DNA of 58,520 nt from an uncultured Oscillospiraceae bacterium (lineage in GTDB: Bacteria; Bacillota; Clostridia; Oscillospirales; Oscillospiraceae): positions 1 through 58,520 of the forward strand of contig CAJFUI010000100.1 in assembly GCA_904420145.1 (NCBI GenBank), in the 5' to 3' direction. Numbering within the stretch: the first letter of the stretch is position 1; each line of letters begins with the position of its first letter. The notes beneath the pieces were generated by a model. It made no database searches and was not told the origin of the DNA. It saw nothing but the letters and a program-made list of their open reading frames with translations. Position numbers and translations under genes: made by a program. Positions 15,155 to 51,777 of the stretch are shown one piece after another.

Positions 15155-15183
15155 GCATACTTTGGGACAACCCGTCATACAGT
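15155..15183 (+). promoter_or_regulatory. SigE-type promoter of the spoIIIA operon
   Basis: GCATACT-N14-CATACAGT closely matches the SigE pattern KHATAYY-N14-CATACAHT. Confidence 0.75.
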
Positions 15184-15215
15184 GGAACAGGAAACGAAAG
15201 ACAGGGGGAGTTGCC

Positions 15216-16121
15216 ATGGAGGCATATGAGCAACAGCGGTTTTGGCAGGCCTGCGGTCTGCTGCCCAAGGCGTTGCGCACGGCGGCGCTGTCCCTCCCGC
15301 CGCCGGAACAGGCCCTTGTGGAGGAGCTGCGCCTGCGGACAGGCCTGCCCCTCACCTTGACCATGCCGGAGGGGGAGCGGACTGTGGCGGGGACAGAGGT
15401 GACCCCGGGCGATCTCGAGCAGGTCCTCAACACGGTGACGGAGTACTCCCGCTACACCGCCTCGGAGAGCCTGCGGCAGGGCTATCTCACCGCCGAGGGG
15501 GGCTTTCGGGTGGGGGTGTGCGGCAGCGTGGTCTTGGAGGGGGGAGCGGTGGCGGCCATCAAGGAGCTCTCCTCCCTGAATATCCGTATCCCAAGGGAGA
15601 GGCCGGGGATCTCTCTGCCCATACTTCCTCTAATCTGCCGAGAGGGGACCAGGGAGGTGGTCAGCACCCTGATTCTCGGCGCGCCGGGAGGCGGGAAAAC
15701 CACCTTCCTCCGGGATATGGTCCGCAGCCTCTCCGACCGGCGGGGAGTGCGGGTGGCCTTAGTGGACGAGCGTGGGGAGATCGCCGCTATGCACCGCTGC
15801 CGTCCCCAGCTGCAGGTGGGTGCCCACACCGACGTGATGGACGCCTGCCCAAAGGCGATTGCCATCCCCGCTCTGCTGCGGGCCATGAATCCGGAGGTTA
15901 TCGCCGTGGACGAGGTCGCCGTGGCGGAGGATGTGGCGGCCATGGAGCGCTCCGCCCACGCCGGAACGGCGCTGCTGGCCACCGTCCACGGATCCAGTGT
16001 GGCGGAGCTGCGGCGCAAGCGGCTCTTCGCGGCCCTCTTGGATACAGGTGTCTTCTCTCAGGCGGTCTGCATCCGCCGGGAGGGGAGGCGGCGGCTCTAT
16101 GAGGTGGAGCGGCTATGCTGA
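15216..16121 (+). CDS. spoIIIAA: stage III sporulation protein AA
   Basis: ATPase with GAPGGGKTTFLRDMVRSLSD; first of eight genes in canonical order. Confidence 0.95.
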   Translation: MEAYEQQRFWQACGLLPKALRTAALSLPPPEQALVEELRLRTGLPLTLTMPEGERTVAGTEVTPGDLEQVLNTVTEYSRYTASESLRQGYLTAEGGFRVGVCGSVVLEGGAVAAIKELSSLNIRIPRERPGISLPILPLICREGTREVVSTLILGAPGGGKTTFLRDMVRSLSDRRGVRVALVDERGEIAAMHRCRPQLQVGAHTDVMDACPKAIAIPALLRAMNPEVIAVDEVAVAEDVAAMERSAHAGTALLATVHGSSVAELRRKRLFAALLDTGVFSQAVCIRREGRRRLYEVERLC

Positions 16122-16796: not shown

Positions 16797-17183
16797 ATGG
16801 AATTGATTGTCAAGGTGGCGGTGATCTGCATTGTGGTGGCCCTGACGGCGCTGCTGCTTCAGCGGGACACCCCTGAGTTGGGGCTGCTGCTGACCTTGGC
16901 CACAGTGGTCGTGGTCATGCTCTTCGCCCTGTCCTTCTATGAGGATGTGGCGGAGCTGATGGACACACTGCTGGCCGAGTCCGGCCTGAGCGGCACCCTT
17001 TTCATTCCGATTTTGAAGATCATCGCCATCTCCCTTGTGACGAAGCTGGGGGGCGATGTGTGCAAGGACAGCGGGCAGAGCGCCCTTGCGGACACGGTGG
17101 ATATAGCGGGCACCTTCTGCGCCCTGCTGGCCGCGGAGCCCCTGTTCCGGGAGGCGTTGTCCCTCTTGACGGGGCTGGGGTGA
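16797..17183 (+). CDS. spoIIIAD: stage III sporulation protein AD
   Basis: 128 aa membrane protein; ILKIIAISLVTKLGGDVCKDSGQSALADTVDIAGTFCAL. Confidence 0.95.
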   Translation: MELIVKVAVICIVVALTALLLQRDTPELGLLLTLATVVVVMLFALSFYEDVAELMDTLLAESGLSGTLFIPILKIIAISLVTKLGGDVCKDSGQSALADTVDIAGTFCALLAAEPLFREALSLLTGLG

Positions 17184-17188
17184 AGTAT

Positions 17189-18250
17189 ATGAAAAAGCTG
17201 CTTGTTTTCTTAATCGTCCTTCTCCTCTGCAGCGGACAAGCCGCTGCGGCGGAGCTCCCCGAGGAGCTGGTGGACAGCCTGCCGGACTCCGCGGCGGACA
17301 TCGGCGCGGAGGAGGGGTGGAGCGCTGGCATTTCCAATCTCCTCTCCCTGGTGCAGGAGCGCTTTTTCTCCCTGCTTCGGGAGGGCGTCGGCGGCATCGT
17401 ACAGCTTTTGCTGGTGCTCTTCCTCTGTGGGATTGCAGAGACCCTCTTCTTCAGCGCCAAGGGAAAGCACACCTTTAACTATGTCGCCTTGACCGCCACG
17501 GCGGCGGTGGTCCTGGTGTCGGCGGGGGATTTGTCCCATCTGATGGGCCTTGGACGGGAGACCATCGGGGAGCTGGAGGCCTTCTCCAAGGTTCTGCTGC
17601 CCACCATGGCCGCCGCCACCGCCTCCATGGGTATGGCAGGGGCCGCCTCGGTGCGGCAGGTGACCACGGTTTTTTTCTGTGACCTGCTGATCTCTTTGAT
17701 TAACCGGCTGATCCTCCCGCTGATCTATCTGTACATCGGCGCCCTCGCCGCCGGCAGCATGTTGGGGGACAGCCGCTTGGACGGCATCGCCAGGGGGATC
17801 AAAAAAGCGGTGGTCTGGGTCCTCAGCGGCCTCTTGACCATCTTCACCCTCTATCTCTCCGTGGCGGGGGCCGTATGGGGAACGGTGGACGGTGCGGCGG
17901 TGAAGGTGACAAAAAAGGCTATCGCGGGAGTGGTGCCGGTGGTGGGAAACATTATTTCCGGTGCGGCGGAGACCGTGCTGGCGGGGGCCGGGGTGCTGAA
18001 AAACAGCATCGGCGTCTTCGGCGTGTTGGCGGTGCTCTCCATCTGTGTGCTGCCTTTTTTGAAGCTCGGCGTGCAGTACCTGCTCTATAAGGCGGCGGCC
18101 TTCGCCGCCTCCACAGTGAGCTCGCCCTCCCTCGTCAAGCTGATCGACGGCTTAGGCGGCGCCTTTGGACTGCTGCTGGGGACGGTGGCCAGCTGCGCGC
18201 TGCTGCTCTTGGTGTCGCTGATCTCCTCGCTGATGGTGGTGGCGGTATGA
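17189..18250 (+). CDS. spoIIIAE: stage III sporulation protein AE
   Basis: multi-TM protein in canonical position; start taken at MKKLLVFLIVLLLCSG rather than the ORF-track start. Confidence 0.92.
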   Translation: MKKLLVFLIVLLLCSGQAAAAELPEELVDSLPDSAADIGAEEGWSAGISNLLSLVQERFFSLLREGVGGIVQLLLVLFLCGIAETLFFSAKGKHTFNYVALTATAAVVLVSAGDLSHLMGLGRETIGELEAFSKVLLPTMAAATASMGMAGAASVRQVTTVFFCDLLISLINRLILPLIYLYIGALAAGSMLGDSRLDGIARGIKKAVVWVLSGLLTIFTLYLSVAGAVWGTVDGAAVKVTKKAIAGVVPVVGNIISGAAETVLAGAGVLKNSIGVFGVLAVLSICVLPFLKLGVQYLLYKAAAFAASTVSSPSLVKLIDGLGGAFGLLLGTVASCALLLLVSLISSLMVVAV

Positions 18251-34341: not shown

Positions 34342-34965
34342 CTATAGAAACAGGCTCATGACCGCCGGGGTGATATAGGCCTCTACAGCGGCGGCGCACA
34401 GCAGCAGGGGGAAGATGAGAAAGAGCAGGACCCGCAGGATATTGGCCAGCAGATCCACCATGGGAACCGCCCGCTCCCGGTGCAGCAGGATGCGCACGGT
34501 GTTCCGGCAGAGCAGAAAGCCGAGGGTCACCGCCAGCAGCAGCGCCGGAATCTCAAAGATGCCGTGGGGCAAAATGCCGGAGAAGAAAATCAGGAAGGAG
34601 ATGCCGTTGAGGTGATAGATGGCAGCTAAAGCGCCGATGATGAACGCGTTGGTCACCGCTACCAGCACCGGCAGGAAGAGAAAGGGGAGAAAGCCATAGA
34701 GGATGCAGAAGAGCATCACGGACCAGTTGTTCAGCAGCAGGGCGAGAAAGGAGAGACCGCCCGTCTCGTCCATGACGCCGGACTGGGAGATAGACTGCTG
34801 AAAATAGGCCAGCAGCGCCTCGGCCAGCTGTGGGTAGGCCACGCACACCCCATAGCCGCCCAGGGCCGCAAGCAGGAAGACCAGCCCCATAATCCAGGGA
34901 ATACGGCCCATCTGGCAGCGGGAAAAGGAGCGCAGCTCCGCAAGGTGTCCCTGTATCCCGCTCAT
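34342..34965 (-). CDS. SpoIIM-like membrane protein (stage II sporulation protein M family)
   Basis: multi-TM; NNWSVMLFCILYGFLPFLFLPVLVAVTNAFIIG...GILPHGIFEIPALLLA; 4-nt overlap with gltX. Confidence 0.8.
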   Translation of the reverse strand: MSGIQGHLAELRSFSRCQMGRIPWIMGLVFLLAALGGYGVCVAYPQLAEALLAYFQQSISQSGVMDETGGLSFLALLLNNWSVMLFCILYGFLPFLFLPVLVAVTNAFIIGALAAIYHLNGISFLIFFSGILPHGIFEIPALLLAVTLGFLLCRNTVRILLHRERAVPMVDLLANILRVLLFLIFPLLLCAAAVEAYITPAVMSLFL

Positions 34966-36452
34966 GGGCAAAGCAGCTCCAGCCCGGCTTTCAGCCGCTT
35001 TAGGCACTCCGCCTTGCCGAGGATCGCGCAGATCTCCACCGCGCCTCCCGGCGTCACCAGCTTGCCCGCCGCGGCGATGCGCACCGGCCACATCAGCGTG
35101 GCATTCTTGACGCCCAGCCGCTCCGCCAAGGCCATTAGACAGCCGTGAACAGCCTCTTGGCTCCAATCGTCCAAGGCCTCTAAAGCGGGGATGGCGGCCT
35201 CCAGCATGGCCTTGGCCACCTCGTCATTGGTCTTAGCCTTCTTATTGGTGAAAAGGGCCTTGTCATAGGCCGGTACGGCGTCAAAGAAGTCCACCTTCTC
35301 CGGGATCTCTGTCAGCTTTTCACAGCGGGCCTGCAGCAGGGCGGCGATGGCTCGGGTATCCAGAGAGGGATTCTTTACGCTCTGGCGGATATAGGGCTCC
35401 GCTGCGGCGTGGAAGGCCTCCGGCGTCATAGCCCGGAGGTAGAGGGCGTTAAAGTGGGTCAGCTTTTCGATGTCGAAGATAGCGGGGGATTTGGAGATGC
35501 CGGCGATATCGAAAATCTCAGACAGCTCCTGCAGGGAGAAGATCTCCCGCTCCGCCTGCTCCCCCCGAGGACTCCAACCCAAAAGGGCCACATAGTTGAG
35601 GATAGCCTCGGTGAGGTAGCCCTGGTCCCTCAGATCCTCATAGGAGGGGTCCCCGTGGCGCTTGCTCATCTTGTTGTGCTGGTCCCGCATGACGGGGGAG
35701 CAGTGGACATAGGTGGGCACCTCCCAGCCGAAGGCGTGGTAGAGCAGGTCGTACTTGGGGGCGGAGGAGAGGTACTCGCTGCCCCGGACCACATGGGTGA
35801 TGCCCATTAGGTGATCGTCGATGACGTTGGCAAAGTTATATGTGGGCAGACCGTCCCGCTTGAGAAGGATCTGGTCATCCAGCGTGCTGTTCTCTACGGT
35901 GATGTCGCCGAAAATAGCGTCATGGAAGGTGGTGAAGCCGCCCTCGGGAATCTTCTGGCGAATCACATAGGGCTCGCCGGCGTCCACCCGGGCCTGGGCC
36001 TCTGCGGGGGAGAGGCTGCGGCAGGGATCGGCGGCACGGTTGAAGTCCCCGGCATCCTCCTCGCTCTCCGTCTTCTCACAGAAGCAGTAGTAGGCGTGGC
36101 CTAATTCCACCAACAGACGGGCATATTTACCGTAAGTGTCCCGGCGCTGAGATTGGATATAGGGGGCCACAGGGCCGCCCACATCGGGTCCCTCGTCGTG
36201 GGTGAGGCCGCACTCAGCCAAGGTGCGGTAGATCACGTCAGTGGCACCTTCAATGAGACGCCCCTGATCCGTGTCCTCAATGCGCAGGATGAAGGTGCCG
36301 CCGGCGCTCCGGGCGATCAGCCAGGTGTAGAGGGCGGTGCGGAGATTTCCCACGTGCATGTAGCCGGTGGGGGAGGGGGCGAAGCGGGTGCGCACCTTCC
36401 CGTGGGGAATCTTTGCCTCCATCTCTTGGAAATAGGTCATATCCATGGACAT
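34962..36452 (-). CDS. gltX: glutamate--tRNA ligase
   Basis: RTRFAPSPTGYMHVGNLRTALYTWLIAR (HIGH-type), KMSKRHGD (KMSKS-type). Confidence 0.97.
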   Translation of the reverse strand: MSMDMTYFQEMEAKIPHGKVRTRFAPSPTGYMHVGNLRTALYTWLIARSAGGTFILRIEDTDQGRLIEGATDVIYRTLAECGLTHDEGPDVGGPVAPYIQSQRRDTYGKYARLLVELGHAYYCFCEKTESEEDAGDFNRAADPCRSLSPAEAQARVDAGEPYVIRQKIPEGGFTTFHDAIFGDITVENSTLDDQILLKRDGLPTYNFANVIDDHLMGITHVVRGSEYLSSAPKYDLLYHAFGWEVPTYVHCSPVMRDQHNKMSKRHGDPSYEDLRDQGYLTEAILNYVALLGWSPRGEQAEREIFSLQELSEIFDIAGISKSPAIFDIEKLTHFNALYLRAMTPEAFHAAAEPYIRQSVKNPSLDTRAIAALLQARCEKLTEIPEKVDFFDAVPAYDKALFTNKKAKTNDEVAKAMLEAAIPALEALDDWSQEAVHGCLMALAERLGVKNATLMWPVRIAAAGKLVTPGGAVEICAILGKAECLKRLKAGLELLCP

Positions 36453-41256: not shown

Positions 41257-41347
41257 GGGGCAAGCAGATTCCTCCGCCGCAGACACCGAGACCAGCGATA
41301 TTTTCCTGCCGCACTGAGAGGCTGGCAGGAAAATATGTATTCTAAAC

Positions 41348-41386
41348 AAAAGGGGTACAGCCCATCAAAGGGCTGTACCCCTTTTT
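41348..41386. terminator. bidirectional terminator
   Basis: AAAGGGGTACAGCCC-ATCAAA-GGGCTGTACCCCTTT between convergent genes. Confidence 0.85.
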
Positions 41387-41686
41387 CTACAGCAGCAGAA
41401 GGAGACCGAGGGCGATCAGCAGCTCCTCGTCCTCCCCCTCGGAGAAGAGTACCAGCAAAAGCAGCAAAAGCAGCAGGTCGCCGGTGTCAATGTCGTCCAG
41501 CTTCAGCTTGCCGAGGAGCCGCTTCAAAAAGCCCTTTGCGCCGCCGTCCCCCTTGGGCGCCTCCCGCTCCCAATCTGGCTCCTGTCGGGGCGGCGGAGAC
41601 TGGGTGTGGCGGGGCGGTGTCTCCTCCTGCTGGTAGGGGATGCGCTGGTAGGCCCCGTCGTCGTTGCGGACATAGCGGTTATACAT
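41387..41686 (-). CDS. uncharacterised protein with Leu-rich acidic C-terminus
   Basis: LKLDDIDTGDLLLLLLLLVLFSEGEDEELLIALGLLLLL; start overlaps stop of the upstream ORF. Confidence 0.7.
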   Translation of the reverse strand: MYNRYVRNDDGAYQRIPYQQEETPPRHTQSPPPRQEPDWEREAPKGDGGAKGFLKRLLGKLKLDDIDTGDLLLLLLLLVLFSEGEDEELLIALGLLLLL

Positions 41687-42102
41687 TATGATTCACCCAG
41701 TGTTCCTAAGAATTTTTTGCCCAGGTGGATGATGTGTGCCACCTGCAGGGCCTTGTCGATCTTGTCCCGGCGTTCCTCCTTCAAAAAGGGGCGCAGGGCG
41801 TAGAGCAGCTGGGCCCGCTGGCTGTTCTGGGGGCTGTTGAGCTCCCCGAGAAGGGGGAGGAGCCGGGAGATCATCTTCGGGTCGATCTGTCCCAGCAGGG
41901 AGGAGGGGTCGCCGGCAGGCGGCGGGGCTGCCTGCGGCGCGCTCTGGGGCGGAGGAGCCGGAGGAGGCTGCTGCCTCTCCGGCTCCTGGGGCTGCTGGGG
42001 CGCGGACATGCCGAGGGACTGGGCGATAGACGCCACCTGCGCCATGGTCTCCGGGGAGGACAGTATCGCATTCAATTTTTCCTCAAACTCGCTCACGATC
42101 AT
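41686..42102 (-). CDS. uncharacterised protein with Pro/Gln-rich linker
   Basis: SSPETMAQVASIAQSLGM - Pro/Gln linker - LLGQIDPKMISRLLPLLGELNS..AQLLYALRPFLKEERRDKIDKALQVAHIIHLGK. Confidence 0.75.
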   Translation of the reverse strand: MIVSEFEEKLNAILSSPETMAQVASIAQSLGMSAPQQPQEPERQQPPPAPPPQSAPQAAPPPAGDPSSLLGQIDPKMISRLLPLLGELNSPQNSQRAQLLYALRPFLKEERRDKIDKALQVAHIIHLGKKFLGTLGES

Positions 42103-42119
42103 GTCCTCCCGCCGTCACG

Positions 42120-42380
42120 CTACTTCTGCTCCATGGTGCGATTGATCCGCTCCACGATCTGCGCCCCCTCGCTGCTGCTCATCAGCTTTTGAATCATCTC
42201 AGTAATGTCCGTTGTGTCGCCCTTGGCTGCCGCGCCCGCGGCCCGGTTGAGATTGGCCCCGCCGGACTGGGCCTTCAGCAGCTGGATCAGCCGCTGGCCG
42301 TCGGGCGAGTTCATCAACTGTAGAAGGGCTCCCTTGTTGCGCTGGAGCTGATTCATCAGGTCCTGTTGCTTGTTGTCCAT
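42120..42380 (-). CDS. small uncharacterised protein
   Basis: MDNKQQDLMNQLQRNKGALLQLMNSPDGQRLIQLLKAQSG..ITEMIQKLMSSSEGAQIVERIN. Confidence 0.7.
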   Translation of the reverse strand: MDNKQQDLMNQLQRNKGALLQLMNSPDGQRLIQLLKAQSGGANLNRAAGAAAKGDTTDITEMIQKLMSSSEGAQIVERINRTMEQK

Positions 42381-42408
42381 GGTTTTCCCCCATTTTGTTT
42401 GGTTACTG

Positions 42409-42437
42409 TATTATATGTGGCGGCGGGGAAAAATGTA
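42409..42437 (-). promoter_or_regulatory. SigK-like promoter candidate (TATAAT also embedded)
   Basis: minus strand TACA-N16-CATATAATA; matches mACm-N16-CATAnnnTA. Confidence 0.4.
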
Positions 42438-42489
42438 CCGGGGGAATGGCCCGGTTGGCGGAGGCGCAGAACCGCAGCGGAGCAAAAAA

Positions 42490-42535
42490 TCCCCGGGGAA
42501 GCGCTCAAGTTAGCAAGCGAGCATTTCCCCGGGGA
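42490..42535 (-). terminator. terminator of the nth operon
   Basis: TCCCCGGGGAA...TTCCCCGGGGA long hairpin; on the minus strand followed by TTTTTT. Confidence 0.75.
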
Positions 42536-42541
42536 GGTTTA

Positions 42542-43414
42542 TTATCTTTTGGGAATGGCGTGCAGAAAGCGTTCCGCCTCCTGGAGCTGATCGGGCAGCA
42601 GGGGAATGGCAAGGGGCGGATCAAAGCGCCGCTCCAGGAGCAGCGCGGTCCTTTTGCGGGGACCGGGGCTTGGGAAATCCGCCTCATCGATCACGCCCCG
42701 GCGGAATTGTTCCCATAGGAGATAGGCGGCGCTGGTCACATAAAAATTTTTTTCGATGACCACCAGCCCACGGTCCATCCACGCGAGAAAATATTCCGGC
42801 TTCGGCTGATGCCAGCGGAAGGGACCGTAGTTTTTGCCCTGAAGGAAGAGACTGCCGGAGATGGCAGGGGAGAGACGGTAGCAGAGCTTGGCAGTGTTGT
42901 ACATGGCGTAGCTCCGCTGGTAGAGGGCGCGCAGCTGGGCACTGTCCGGGTGGGACACAGCGGGCTTGGCATCCCTTGGGAGGCCGAGAAGCAGATTCAT
43001 TACCGGGAGGAGGTAATGGTCCTTGGTCTTGTTGTAGGCAAAGGAGACCTGGCGCTGGCAGTTGTTTTTTCGATAGTTCACGGTGATGGTGCACTGGAGC
43101 AGGGAGATAGCGTAGGTGAGGCAGGTCACCTCACCGGGCTTCAGCGCCGTCTCCTCCACTGTGCCGTCGTCCCGTCCGGTGAGGATCACCACCGTGTCGT
43201 CTAAATAGGCGATCAGGTACTCCGTTCCGGCGGCGTATTGGTGGATTTTGGGGATATAGACCACCTGTTCCCGGGGAAGCCCGCGGTCCCGATAGGGACG
43301 CAGGGCGGGAGCAAACCGCTCCGGCAGTTCCGACCAGTCATAGAGGAGCGTGGGCCATGAGGCGAGGGTGGGCCGGTCGTCTGCACGGATGGGCCAAAGC
43401 CGCTTACTGCCCAT
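42542..43414 (-). CDS. uncharacterised conserved-looking protein
   Basis: ORF overlaps the nth 3' end; no family recognised with confidence. Confidence 0.75.
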   Translation of the reverse strand: MGSKRLWPIRADDRPTLASWPTLLYDWSELPERFAPALRPYRDRGLPREQVVYIPKIHQYAAGTEYLIAYLDDTVVILTGRDDGTVEETALKPGEVTCLTYAISLLQCTITVNYRKNNCQRQVSFAYNKTKDHYLLPVMNLLLGLPRDAKPAVSHPDSAQLRALYQRSYAMYNTAKLCYRLSPAISGSLFLQGKNYGPFRWHQPKPEYFLAWMDRGLVVIEKNFYVTSAAYLLWEQFRRGVIDEADFPSPGPRKRTALLLERRFDPPLAIPLLPDQLQEAERFLHAIPKR

Positions 43415-44066
43415 CTTCCTCCTCCTGTTCTCCGCTCCAGTGGTCACACCAAGGGCGCAGGGCGCATTCGGCGCAGTTGGGCCGCCGGGCCACGCAGACC
43501 GCCCGGCCGTGGAGGACCATGCGGTGGCAGAAGTTGTTGCTCTCTTCCGGCGGGATGCACCTGCGCAGCTGCTGTTCCACCTTCAGCGGGTCCTTGCTGC
43601 CGTCGGTAATACCCAAAAGGCCGGTGATGCGGATACAGTGGGTGTCGCAGACATAGCCCTCCCTGCCATAGACATCGCCAAGGATCAGATTGGCCGTCTT
43701 ACGCCCCACACCGGGCAGGCGGAGGAGGTCCTCCATATTGTCGGGAACCCTGCCGTCAAACTCCTCCAGCAGCATCCGGCTGGCGGCGACAATGTCCCGG
43801 GCCTTGGCCCGCCAAAAACCGGTGGAGTGGATGTACTCGCCCACCTCGTCCACATCGGCCTCCGCAAGGGACTGGAGGGTGGGGTAGCGAGCGTAGAGGG
43901 CCGGGGTCACCAGGTTGACCCGGGCATCGGTGCACTGGGCGGCTAAACGGACGGAAAAGAGCAGCTCGTAGGCCTTGTCGGGGTCATAGGTCAGCGAGCA
44001 CGCCGCGTCGGGATAGAGTTTCTTTAATGTCTCAATGATATGGCTGATATCTTCCTGCGTCTTCAT
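43404..44066 (-). CDS. nth: endonuclease III
   Basis: LLRLPGVGRKTANLILGDVYG HhH; C-terminal CVARRPNCAECALRPWC FeS-type cysteines. Confidence 0.96.
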   Translation of the reverse strand: MKTQEDISHIIETLKKLYPDAACSLTYDPDKAYELLFSVRLAAQCTDARVNLVTPALYARYPTLQSLAEADVDEVGEYIHSTGFWRAKARDIVAASRMLLEEFDGRVPDNMEDLLRLPGVGRKTANLILGDVYGREGYVCDTHCIRITGLLGITDGSKDPLKVEQQLRRCIPPEESNNFCHRMVLHGRAVCVARRPNCAECALRPWCDHWSGEQEEEDGQ

Positions 44067-44183
44067 GGAATCACCTCAGAGCCATCCTACCACAGTTTTC
44101 GGCAAAATACGAGGAAAAAATCTGTGCAAGGGGGAAAAAGTGTGGTAGAATCATTCCTGAGTGAAAACCGGAGGAAATTTGCC

Positions 44184-44654
44184 ATGCAACTTTATTTCAA
44201 GCAGCGCTTCTTCTCCTGGCTGGACAGCTATGATATCTACGGGGAAAACGGAGAGACCCTCTTCACCGTGGAGGGCCGGCTCAGCTGGGGACACCGGCTC
44301 CATGTGCTGGACGCCCAGGGGAATCACATCGCCACTTTGCAGGAGAAGGTGTTCACCTTTCTCCCCCAATTTGAGATCTATATCGGCGAGACCTACATAG
44401 GCTGCATCAAGAAGGAGTTTACCTTCTTCAAGCCCCAATTCACCCTCGACTGCAGCGACTGGCAGGTGGACGGGGCGTGGATGGAGTGGGACTATCAGAT
44501 CACCAGTCCCACGGAGGGGCTGGTGGCCGTCATCACTAAGGAGGTGCTCCAGTGGACGGACACCTATGTGATCGACGTGGCGGACCCAAACAACGCGCTG
44601 GCAGCGCTGCTGGTGGTGCTGGCCATCGACGCGGAGAAATGCTCGAGAGACTAA
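44184..44654 (+). CDS. LURP-one-related family protein
   Basis: MQLYFKQRFFSWLDSYDIYGENGETLFTVEGRLSWGHRLHVLDAQGNHIATLQEKVFTFLPQFEI. Confidence 0.88.
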   Translation: MQLYFKQRFFSWLDSYDIYGENGETLFTVEGRLSWGHRLHVLDAQGNHIATLQEKVFTFLPQFEIYIGETYIGCIKKEFTFFKPQFTLDCSDWQVDGAWMEWDYQITSPTEGLVAVITKEVLQWTDTYVIDVADPNNALAALLVVLAIDAEKCSRD

Positions 44655-50294: not shown

Positions 50295-51095
50295 GTGACG
50301 GTGATCTACGCGGACTTGGCGTTTTTTCTCAACGCCGTTTTGGATTATCTGACCCTCTGCTGCACCGTCCGGCTCTTTGGCCTGCCCCTGCGGCACCGGC
50401 GGATCGCCGCTGCCGCGGCGGCGGGGGGCGTATACGGCGTGCTCGCCCTGCTGCCGCCCTGGAGATTTCTGACGGCGGTGGTCTGCAAGTGCGCGGTGTC
50501 AGCGCTGATGGTGCGCATCGCCTTCGGGAAGAGCGGCTATTTTCTGCGGCACTACCTGCTCTTTTTAGTGGCCTCCTGCACCCTGTCCGGGGCGGTGGTG
50601 GGGCTGGAGGCTGTTTTCACCCAGACGGACAGCCCGTGGGTGATCTTTCTTCTCTCCGGCGCCTTCTGCGCCTTCGCCCTTGCGGTGGTGTTCCACCGGG
50701 GGGCGGCTTCAGCGGGCCGGCTGGTGACGGCGGAGATCGCCTTCGGCGGACGGCGCACCCGTGTCACCCTCTTCTGTGACACGGGGAACACCCTCCGGGA
50801 TCCCATCAGCGGGCAGGTGCTGTGCATCGTCTGGCGGGAGGCCCTGTCGCCTCTGCTGGCGGGGCGGGAGGTGCCCTATCGAACCATCACCTACCAGTCA
50901 GTGGGGACCGCTCAGGCGGAGTTGCCCTATTTCTGCTGCGATTCCCTGACCATCGGCAAGAAGACATGGAAAAACTATCCCATCGGCGTCACAGACCACC
51001 CCCTGTCGGATGGGGGCGGCTTTGTGGGACTGTGGGGCGGCGAACAGGAAGGAGAAGGCTGTAATGATCGCGCGATGGCTGCAAAAACTACATAA
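50295..51095 (+). CDS. spoIIGA: sigma-E processing peptidase SpoIIGA
   Basis: N-terminal multi-TM half, aspartic protease-like [16 protein letters not shown], adjacent to sigE. Confidence 0.93.
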
Positions 51096-51777
51096 TCTGC
51101 TGGAAAAATGGGGACTCCTCCTGCCCGGACGGGTCCACTACATCGGGGGCAGCGACACCCTGCCTCCGCCCCTGCCCAGAGAGGAGGAGGCGGTGCTCCT
51201 TCAGAGGCTCGATGAGGGGGATCTCTCCGCCCGCCAGACGCTGATCGAGCGCAACCTCCGCCTGGTGGTGTATATCGCCCGGCGCTTTGAGAACACCGGC
51301 ATCAATATCGAGGACCTGATCTCCATCGGCACCATCGGCCTGATCAAGGCCATCAACACCTATAAATGCGACAAGAACATCAAGCTGGCCACCTATGCCT
51401 CCCGGTGCATTGAAAACGAGATTTTGATGTACCTGCGCAAGAGTGTGGGACAGAAAGGGGAGGTGAGCCTGGATGAACCGTTGAACACCGACTGGGACGG
51501 CAACGAGCTGCTCCTCAGCGACATCCTCGGCACCGACAGCGACGAGGTCTCCCGGCCCATTGAGGAGGATGTGGACCGCTCTCTCCTCAACGAGGCCATC
51601 TCCCGCCTGGACCAGCGGGACCGGGAGATCATCGTGCTGCGCTTTGGCCTCTTCGGTCAGCGGGAGCAGACCCAGAAGGAGGTGGCCGACCGCCTCGGCA
51701 TCTCCCAGTCCTACATCTCCCGGCTGGAGAAGCGGATCATCCTGCGCTTAAAGCGGGAGATCCTCCGCCTGAGCTGA
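51064..51777 (+). CDS. sigE: RNA polymerase sporulation sigma factor SigE
   Basis: pro-sequence ending [53 protein letters not shown]; overlaps spoIIGA by 32 nt. Confidence 0.96.

Follow-up and report, generated by a model that had tools for sequence, protein, structure and literature searches.

A conserved operon of three small proteins behind a SigK-type promoter, probably serving sporulation, in one order of Clostridia

We analysed a window of 58,520 nucleotides, the whole stretch of DNA taken from a contig of an uncultured Oscillospiraceae bacterium, in which the list of open reading frames (ORFs) places three small genes, here termed P1, P2 and P3, in that order on the minus strand from 42380 to 41387. 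They form a compact unit that runs from a promoter-like site at 42436 to a terminator-like hairpin at about 41344, with the following features:

42483-42534, minus strand: terminator-like hairpin before the operon, CCCCGGGGAA...TTCCCCGGGG-ATTTTTT, identified by eye, ending the upstream gene for a 301-aa protein
42409-42436, minus strand: SigK-type promoter, with the -35 AC at 42436-42435, a 17-nt spacer and the -10 CATATAATA at 42417-42409, ahead of the P1 ATG at 42380
42120-42380, minus strand: P1, ORF of 86 aa, helical as read from the sequence, with SP/DP-containing helical segments
41686-42102, minus strand: P2, ORF of 138 aa, with an N-terminal helical pair (EEKLNAILSSPETMAQVASIAQSL), a Pro/Gln-rich linker and C-terminal helices (LLYALRPFLKEERRDKIDKALQVA)
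41387-41686, minus strand: P3, ORF of 99 aa, with a beta-hairpin (MYNRYxxNDDGxYxRIP), a disordered linker and a Leu-rich helical hairpin
41344-41386, minus strand: terminator-like hairpin 3' of P3, GGGGTACAGCCC-TTTGAT-GGGCTGTACCCC followed by TTTTGTTT, identified by eye, ending the unit

The original prediction had described minus-strand ORFs of 86, 138 and 99 aa, which we recovered with exactly these coordinates and lengths, and an overlap of the second and third genes, which amounts to 1 nt, one base being common to the P2 stop and the P3 start (TAATG). P1 and P2 are separated by 17 nt in the window. Because P2 in relatives starts with a GTG that matches position 42096, the true start in the window may differ from the ATG at 42102. 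The acidic turn of the C-terminal hairpin of P3 reads SEGEDEE. Neither terminator-like hairpin was listed by the terminator scan of the window; the one behind P3 was probably missed because A-T pairs extend its stem into the T run, and the one before the operon because the scan rules permit a loop of only 3-8 nt. Because the latter hairpin closes the upstream gene, the operon appears to be transcribed separately. Scans for tRNAs and Rfam families returned nothing at the operon locus. The upstream gene (42542-43447, minus strand) encodes a 301-aa protein with no Pfam or NCBIfam match, and a LURP-one-related (tubby-like) protein is encoded at 44040-44654 on the plus strand (E = 2e-13).

A plain search found P1 homologues in 17 of 40 related genomes, and wherever the DNA extended, homologues of P2 and P3 lay beside them in the same order. 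The P2 profile matched 199 of the 217 genomes of the order. After 80 further loci had been added, 128 distinct P2 loci were available for gene-order counts. An iterated profile placed P3 directly downstream of P2 at 120 of these; among the remaining loci, four had a P3 gene slightly beyond the region searched and two were cut by the sequence end. P1 lay directly upstream of P2 at 91 of the 128 loci (L045 counted by hand), and a different small helical ORF took its position in most of the others. The median gaps are 17 nt between P1 and P2 and 8.5 nt between P2 and P3, and the P2 and P3 genes touch or overlap in 43 of 120 pairs. Oscillibacter valericigenes (L199), O. ruminantium and Flintibacter muris are among the carriers.

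An independent test drew on 80 named loci from a separate collection, 71 of them new and unused in profile training. P1 preceded P2 at all 71 and P3 followed P2 at 67; the other four loci are short, with the place expected for P3 at or near the sequence end. The co-conservation and synteny on which the original prediction depended are thus borne out at the sequence level, and the recurrence of all three homologues, identically ordered, across many other genomes places the trio far beyond chance, as judged by these comparisons.

The intact trio belongs to one order; elsewhere in the Clostridia there are remote P2- or P3-like genes with different partners. We rejected the idea that all Clostridia carry the trio, since the P2 profile matched 32 of 250 genomes of the phylum, many of the matches covering the C-terminal motif only. 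Four remote clostridial loci (L020, L021, L023 and L024) carry a P2-like gene followed by a P3-like gene, and other remote Clostridia combine the C-terminal motif of P2 (LLLAIKPFLS) with short peptides rich in Leu, for example NPFTLFLILILLL. Because many remote matches are weak and confined to the motif, common descent is likely only for the group of four. At one locus (L148:1132-1875), a single ORF of 247 aa contains both a P3-like Leu-rich hairpin and N- and C-terminal segments resembling P2, a possible fusion that predicts contact between P2 and P3.

In other Clostridia (L151-L168) we also observed small undescribed operons that encode a P2-like C-terminal motif together with short NPxTLFLILILLL peptides and that often adjoin a subtilase or a second conserved gene, which is serine-protease-like and has no Pfam match. 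Among the remote relatives, L157 lies beside an S8 protease and L022 near GroES. A divergent gene with a YfcE-type phosphodiesterase motif lies upstream of the operon at 47 of 128 P2 loci (for example L105:1553-2002, minus strand); because it is missing at the window locus, we regard it as a neighbour only and not as part of the operon.

The window's P1, P2 and P3 had no Pfam or NCBIfam match above the cut-off, only chance-level matches, and 64-73 homologues of each protein compared with Pfam likewise reached no curated family. Family scans of the remote homologues gave chance-level matches only, and the three proteins matched no solved structure. The claim that the trio belongs to no described family therefore withstood comparison with Pfam, NCBIfam and the PDB, and the three small proteins are in neither of the family catalogues compared (Pfam and NCBIfam). 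A P1 profile searched against the PDB returned designed helical repeats and a weak match to spore germination protein 4o8w (E = 0.005), which we discarded as a generic helix signal. In the main texts of the papers searched, we found no description of such an operon.

AlphaFold models of P2 and P3 were built from 64-row alignments. The P2 model (pLDDT 77.5, pTM 0.39) is helical with a low-confidence middle, its helices spanning residues 2-14, 17-29, 75-88, 91-102 and 109-136. The P3 model (pLDDT 79, pTM 0.35) begins with a short beta-hairpin within its conserved N-terminal segment MYNRYxxNDDGxYxRIP, continues through an irregular linker and a short helix (51-60), and ends in a C-terminal helical hairpin (68-83/87-98) with helices of 16 and 12 residues. 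Each of the two hydrophobic stretches has a median length of 11 residues among 116 P3 relatives, and 102 of these relatives have a net acidic turn. Stretches of this length are short for membrane spans, a point against the reading favoured below. A Foldseek comparison of the P2 and P3 models with the PDB returned nothing below E = 3.

In C. difficile, SigE and SigK promoters have a common -10 and differ at the -35, which is ATA for SigE and AC for SigK (PMC3789822); the consensus from that organism gave our SigK-type pattern, AC-N16/17-CATAnnnT (PMC3789822). CATAnnnT occurred within 180 nt ahead of P1 at 77 of 90 loci with a recognised P1, compared with 17.7 in shuffled sequence, and in 38 of 314 control upstream regions of other ORFs. 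The full pattern was present at 49 of the 90 broad-set loci, against 2.2 in shuffled sequence and 13 of 415 control regions (p = 4e-31 for 49/90 versus 13/415, with ancestry ignored; all promoter p values and counts disregard relatedness among loci). At the independent loci, which are closer to the window than the broad set, a SigK-type promoter lay upstream of P1 in 65 of 71 cases versus 1.3 expected from shuffling, and neither the SigE-type nor the SigA-type pattern was found at any of the 71.

TATAAT, a possible SigA -10, is embedded in the -10 of the window. The SigA-type pattern TTGA-N18-20-TATAAT was found at none of the 90 broad-set loci, and a scan for sigma-70-type promoters upstream of P1 in the window returned none. 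When the preceding bases were not conditioned on, CA stood before TATAHT at 37 of 55 sites. At the 37 loci with CATATAHT, AC preceded CATA by 17 nt in 24 cases and by 16 nt in nine (33/37), AC at any other single distance occurred at most three times, and the ATA of SigE was present at 3/37. The SigE-like pattern ATA-N14-17-CATAnnnT also matched 11 of the 90 broad-set loci. Beyond near relatives, about half of the loci have no match to the strict promoter pattern, and neither the O. valericigenes Sjm18-20 locus nor that of Flintibacter muris gave one.

From the counts over the 90 and 71 loci, the original proposal of a SigK-like promoter is well supported, by the match in the window and by the independent loci, with AC rather than ATA at the -35 and no SigA-type -35. 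The accompanying worry about SigA, raised by the embedded TATAAT, found no backing in either set of loci or in the scan. In the window genome itself, contig C74 ends in an N-terminal fragment of a SigK-type sigma factor that covers model positions 4-66, the gene being incomplete in the assembly. In genome G450 (contig C12), two sigK-type halves (L250 and L251) lie about 27 kb apart with a recombinase-like sequence by one of them, as in a skin-type element.

The window contains further sporulation genes, namely spoIIIAA (15162-16121), spoIIIAE (17060-18250), spoIIM (34342-35166, minus strand), spoIIGA (50295-51095) and sigE (51010-51777), so the organism has much of the machinery for sporulation; SigE scored above its NCBIfam cut-off, and the other four above Pfam and below NCBIfam cut-offs. 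Across the order, SpoIVA (TIGR02836) was found in 206 of 217 genomes, and P2 was missing from 6 of 11 SpoIVA-negative versus 12 of 206 SpoIVA-positive genomes (about 6%; Fisher p = 5e-5, shared ancestry ignored). Of the six SpoIVA-negative genomes without P2, four fall in one genus, g243. Because those 12 genomes have SpoIVA without a detected P2, P2 is not needed by every spore-former.

SigK/SigE-type sigma factors were searched for in 30 chosen genomes. Six genomes (G296, G317, G330, G343, G366 and G492) have neither SpoIVA, nor a full-length SigE/SigK relative, nor P2, their best sigma matches having E values of about 1e-17 to 1e-21; they represent two genera. Within genus g243, G303 and G490 keep both SpoIVA and P2, and G492 has neither. 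Five genomes of the order sample are P2-positive and SpoIVA-negative; all have SigE/SigK (E below 1e-70), and they probably reflect assembly gaps. G411 has a SigE/SigK-type sigma factor and lacks SpoIVA and P2. P2 was thus present in none of the six genomes without SpoIVA and SigE/K, versus 199 of about 212 others of the order sample. In the phylum sample of 250 genomes, SpoIVA occurs in 31 of the 32 with the P2 profile, and the remaining one has a SigE/K-type sigma factor.

By these distributions the association of P2 with sporulation is real, and it rests on two independent losses. The proposed restriction to spore-formers accordingly stands for the six loss genomes of two genera and is qualified by the roughly 6% of SpoIVA-positive genomes in which P2 went undetected. 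O. valericigenes possesses all sporulation sigma factors and lacks cotF, cotS and yabQ, and no spores have been seen (PMC3558957); that it keeps the trio counts against a sporulation reading.

The closest known counterparts in layout are C. difficile SigK operons. Many coat and exosporium genes are among the SigK targets of C. difficile (PMC3789822), and operons such as CD0596-cotF-cotCB and CD2399-cotJB2-cotD are, like the trio, short, encode small uncharacterised proteins and have an AC/CATAnnnT promoter (PMC3789822). The trio would also have their late mother-cell timing. In contrast to these operons, which end with a manganese catalase, the trio operon does not, and by Pfam and NCBIfam it has no sequence relation to them.

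A second comparison is with YjcZ-like small hydrophobic proteins of sporulation. Like them, P3 is a spore-former protein that has a short stretch rich in Leu/Ile and no assigned role, but none of 64 P3 members matched by profile, and P3 has an acidic-turn helical hairpin and a conserved N-terminal Tyr hairpin.

The trio is very probably a SigK-dependent sporulation operon, as judged from its promoter and distribution. Because it is near-universal in the order's spore-formers, has a late promoter and is missing where sporulation has been lost, it is probably an unstudied part of spore building. We favour, with a probability of roughly 0.55, a late mother-cell SigK operon that makes an order-specific spore-envelope assembly. 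SigK RNA polymerase would read the operon late in the mother cell, and the three small proteins would be expressed there and cooperate, in contact with one another, on the surface of the spore as it develops in this Oscillospirales-type order of Clostridia. P3 would anchor the assembly or polymerise. Its Leu-rich helical hairpin may insert into or pack on a membrane or a hydrophobic layer, for which the outer forespore membrane and the inner coat are the likeliest candidates, and its Tyr-containing N-terminal hairpin would extend outward on the disordered linker. P2 together with P1 may act as soluble helical binders of P3, which would prevent aggregation of the greasy tail or link P3 to the coat.

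In a bolder and doubtful version, acidic-turn Leu hairpins of the P3 type would polymerise into a separate hydrophobic layer of spore protein with P1 and P2 as dedicated handlers, as one branch of a wider undescribed clostridial family. If this were true, the P2-like domains that occur with short Leu-rich peptides, sometimes by S8 proteases or fused, would belong to an envelope-building system unrelated to known coat proteins.

About equally doubtful is a SigK operon with another late mother-cell task, such as timed lysis, in which P3 would permeabilise a membrane and P1 and P2 would keep it inactive. This account shares the SigK-type promoter evidence, and the two hydrophobic helices of P3 with their acidic turn and the soluble partners encoded upstream would suit it. 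The helices are short, however, the conserved N-terminal Tyr hairpin and long linker would be superfluous for a pore, and no holin or toxin family was matched.

Somewhat less probable still is a sporulation operon driven mainly by SigE at an earlier stage (engulfment or cortex). The -10 common to both sigma factors, the ATA matches in the broad set and the occurrence of CATATACTG instead of CATAnnnTA at many loci are in its favour, but the clean promoters with AC at 16-17 nt far outnumber those with ATA, and the independent loci have no SigE pattern.

We give similarly low odds to the idea that P1 and P2 are client-binding modules like STI1/DP, a chaperone pair for hydrophobic tails of the P3 type rather than structural proteins. 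Both are short helical modules with DP/NP/SP motifs, as is the STI1/HOP DP domain (PF17830), and STI1-HOP_DP was among the commonest weak Pfam matches of their homologues (4 of 73 P1 members, best E = 4e-4; 2 of 64 P2 members, best E = 6e-4). These matches are sporadic, however, and of a sort common for short helical proteins. The window proteins stay below the family cut-off (P1: E = 0.6, 10.5 bits against 29.1), and no sequence or fold match to STI1 was found in the PDB.

It is highly improbable that the operon has a housekeeping or stress role, with SigA transcribing it from the embedded TATAAT and shared ancestry producing the sporulation link. In favour of this are the TATAAT itself, the small size of the loss test (six genomes, two genera) and occasional housekeeping neighbours such as an HhH-GPD repair enzyme. 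Against it are the lack of the SigA-type pattern in the 90 and 71 loci and of a sigma-70-type site in the window scan, the prevalence of CA before TATAHT, and the matched loss and retention within genus g243.

O. valericigenes is missing a number of late and coat genes that occur widely in clostridia (PMC3558957), and the absence of cotF, cotS and yabQ leaves room for late proteins specific to the lineage. The trio, present in nearly all genomes of the order and preceded by a late sporulation promoter, is a strong candidate for the replacement of such genes. The order's spore-formers are common in animal guts, and spores aid the spread of gut anaerobes. The trio would provide three targets for spore proteomics and reporters, and its genes may serve as markers for predicting sporulation from genomes.
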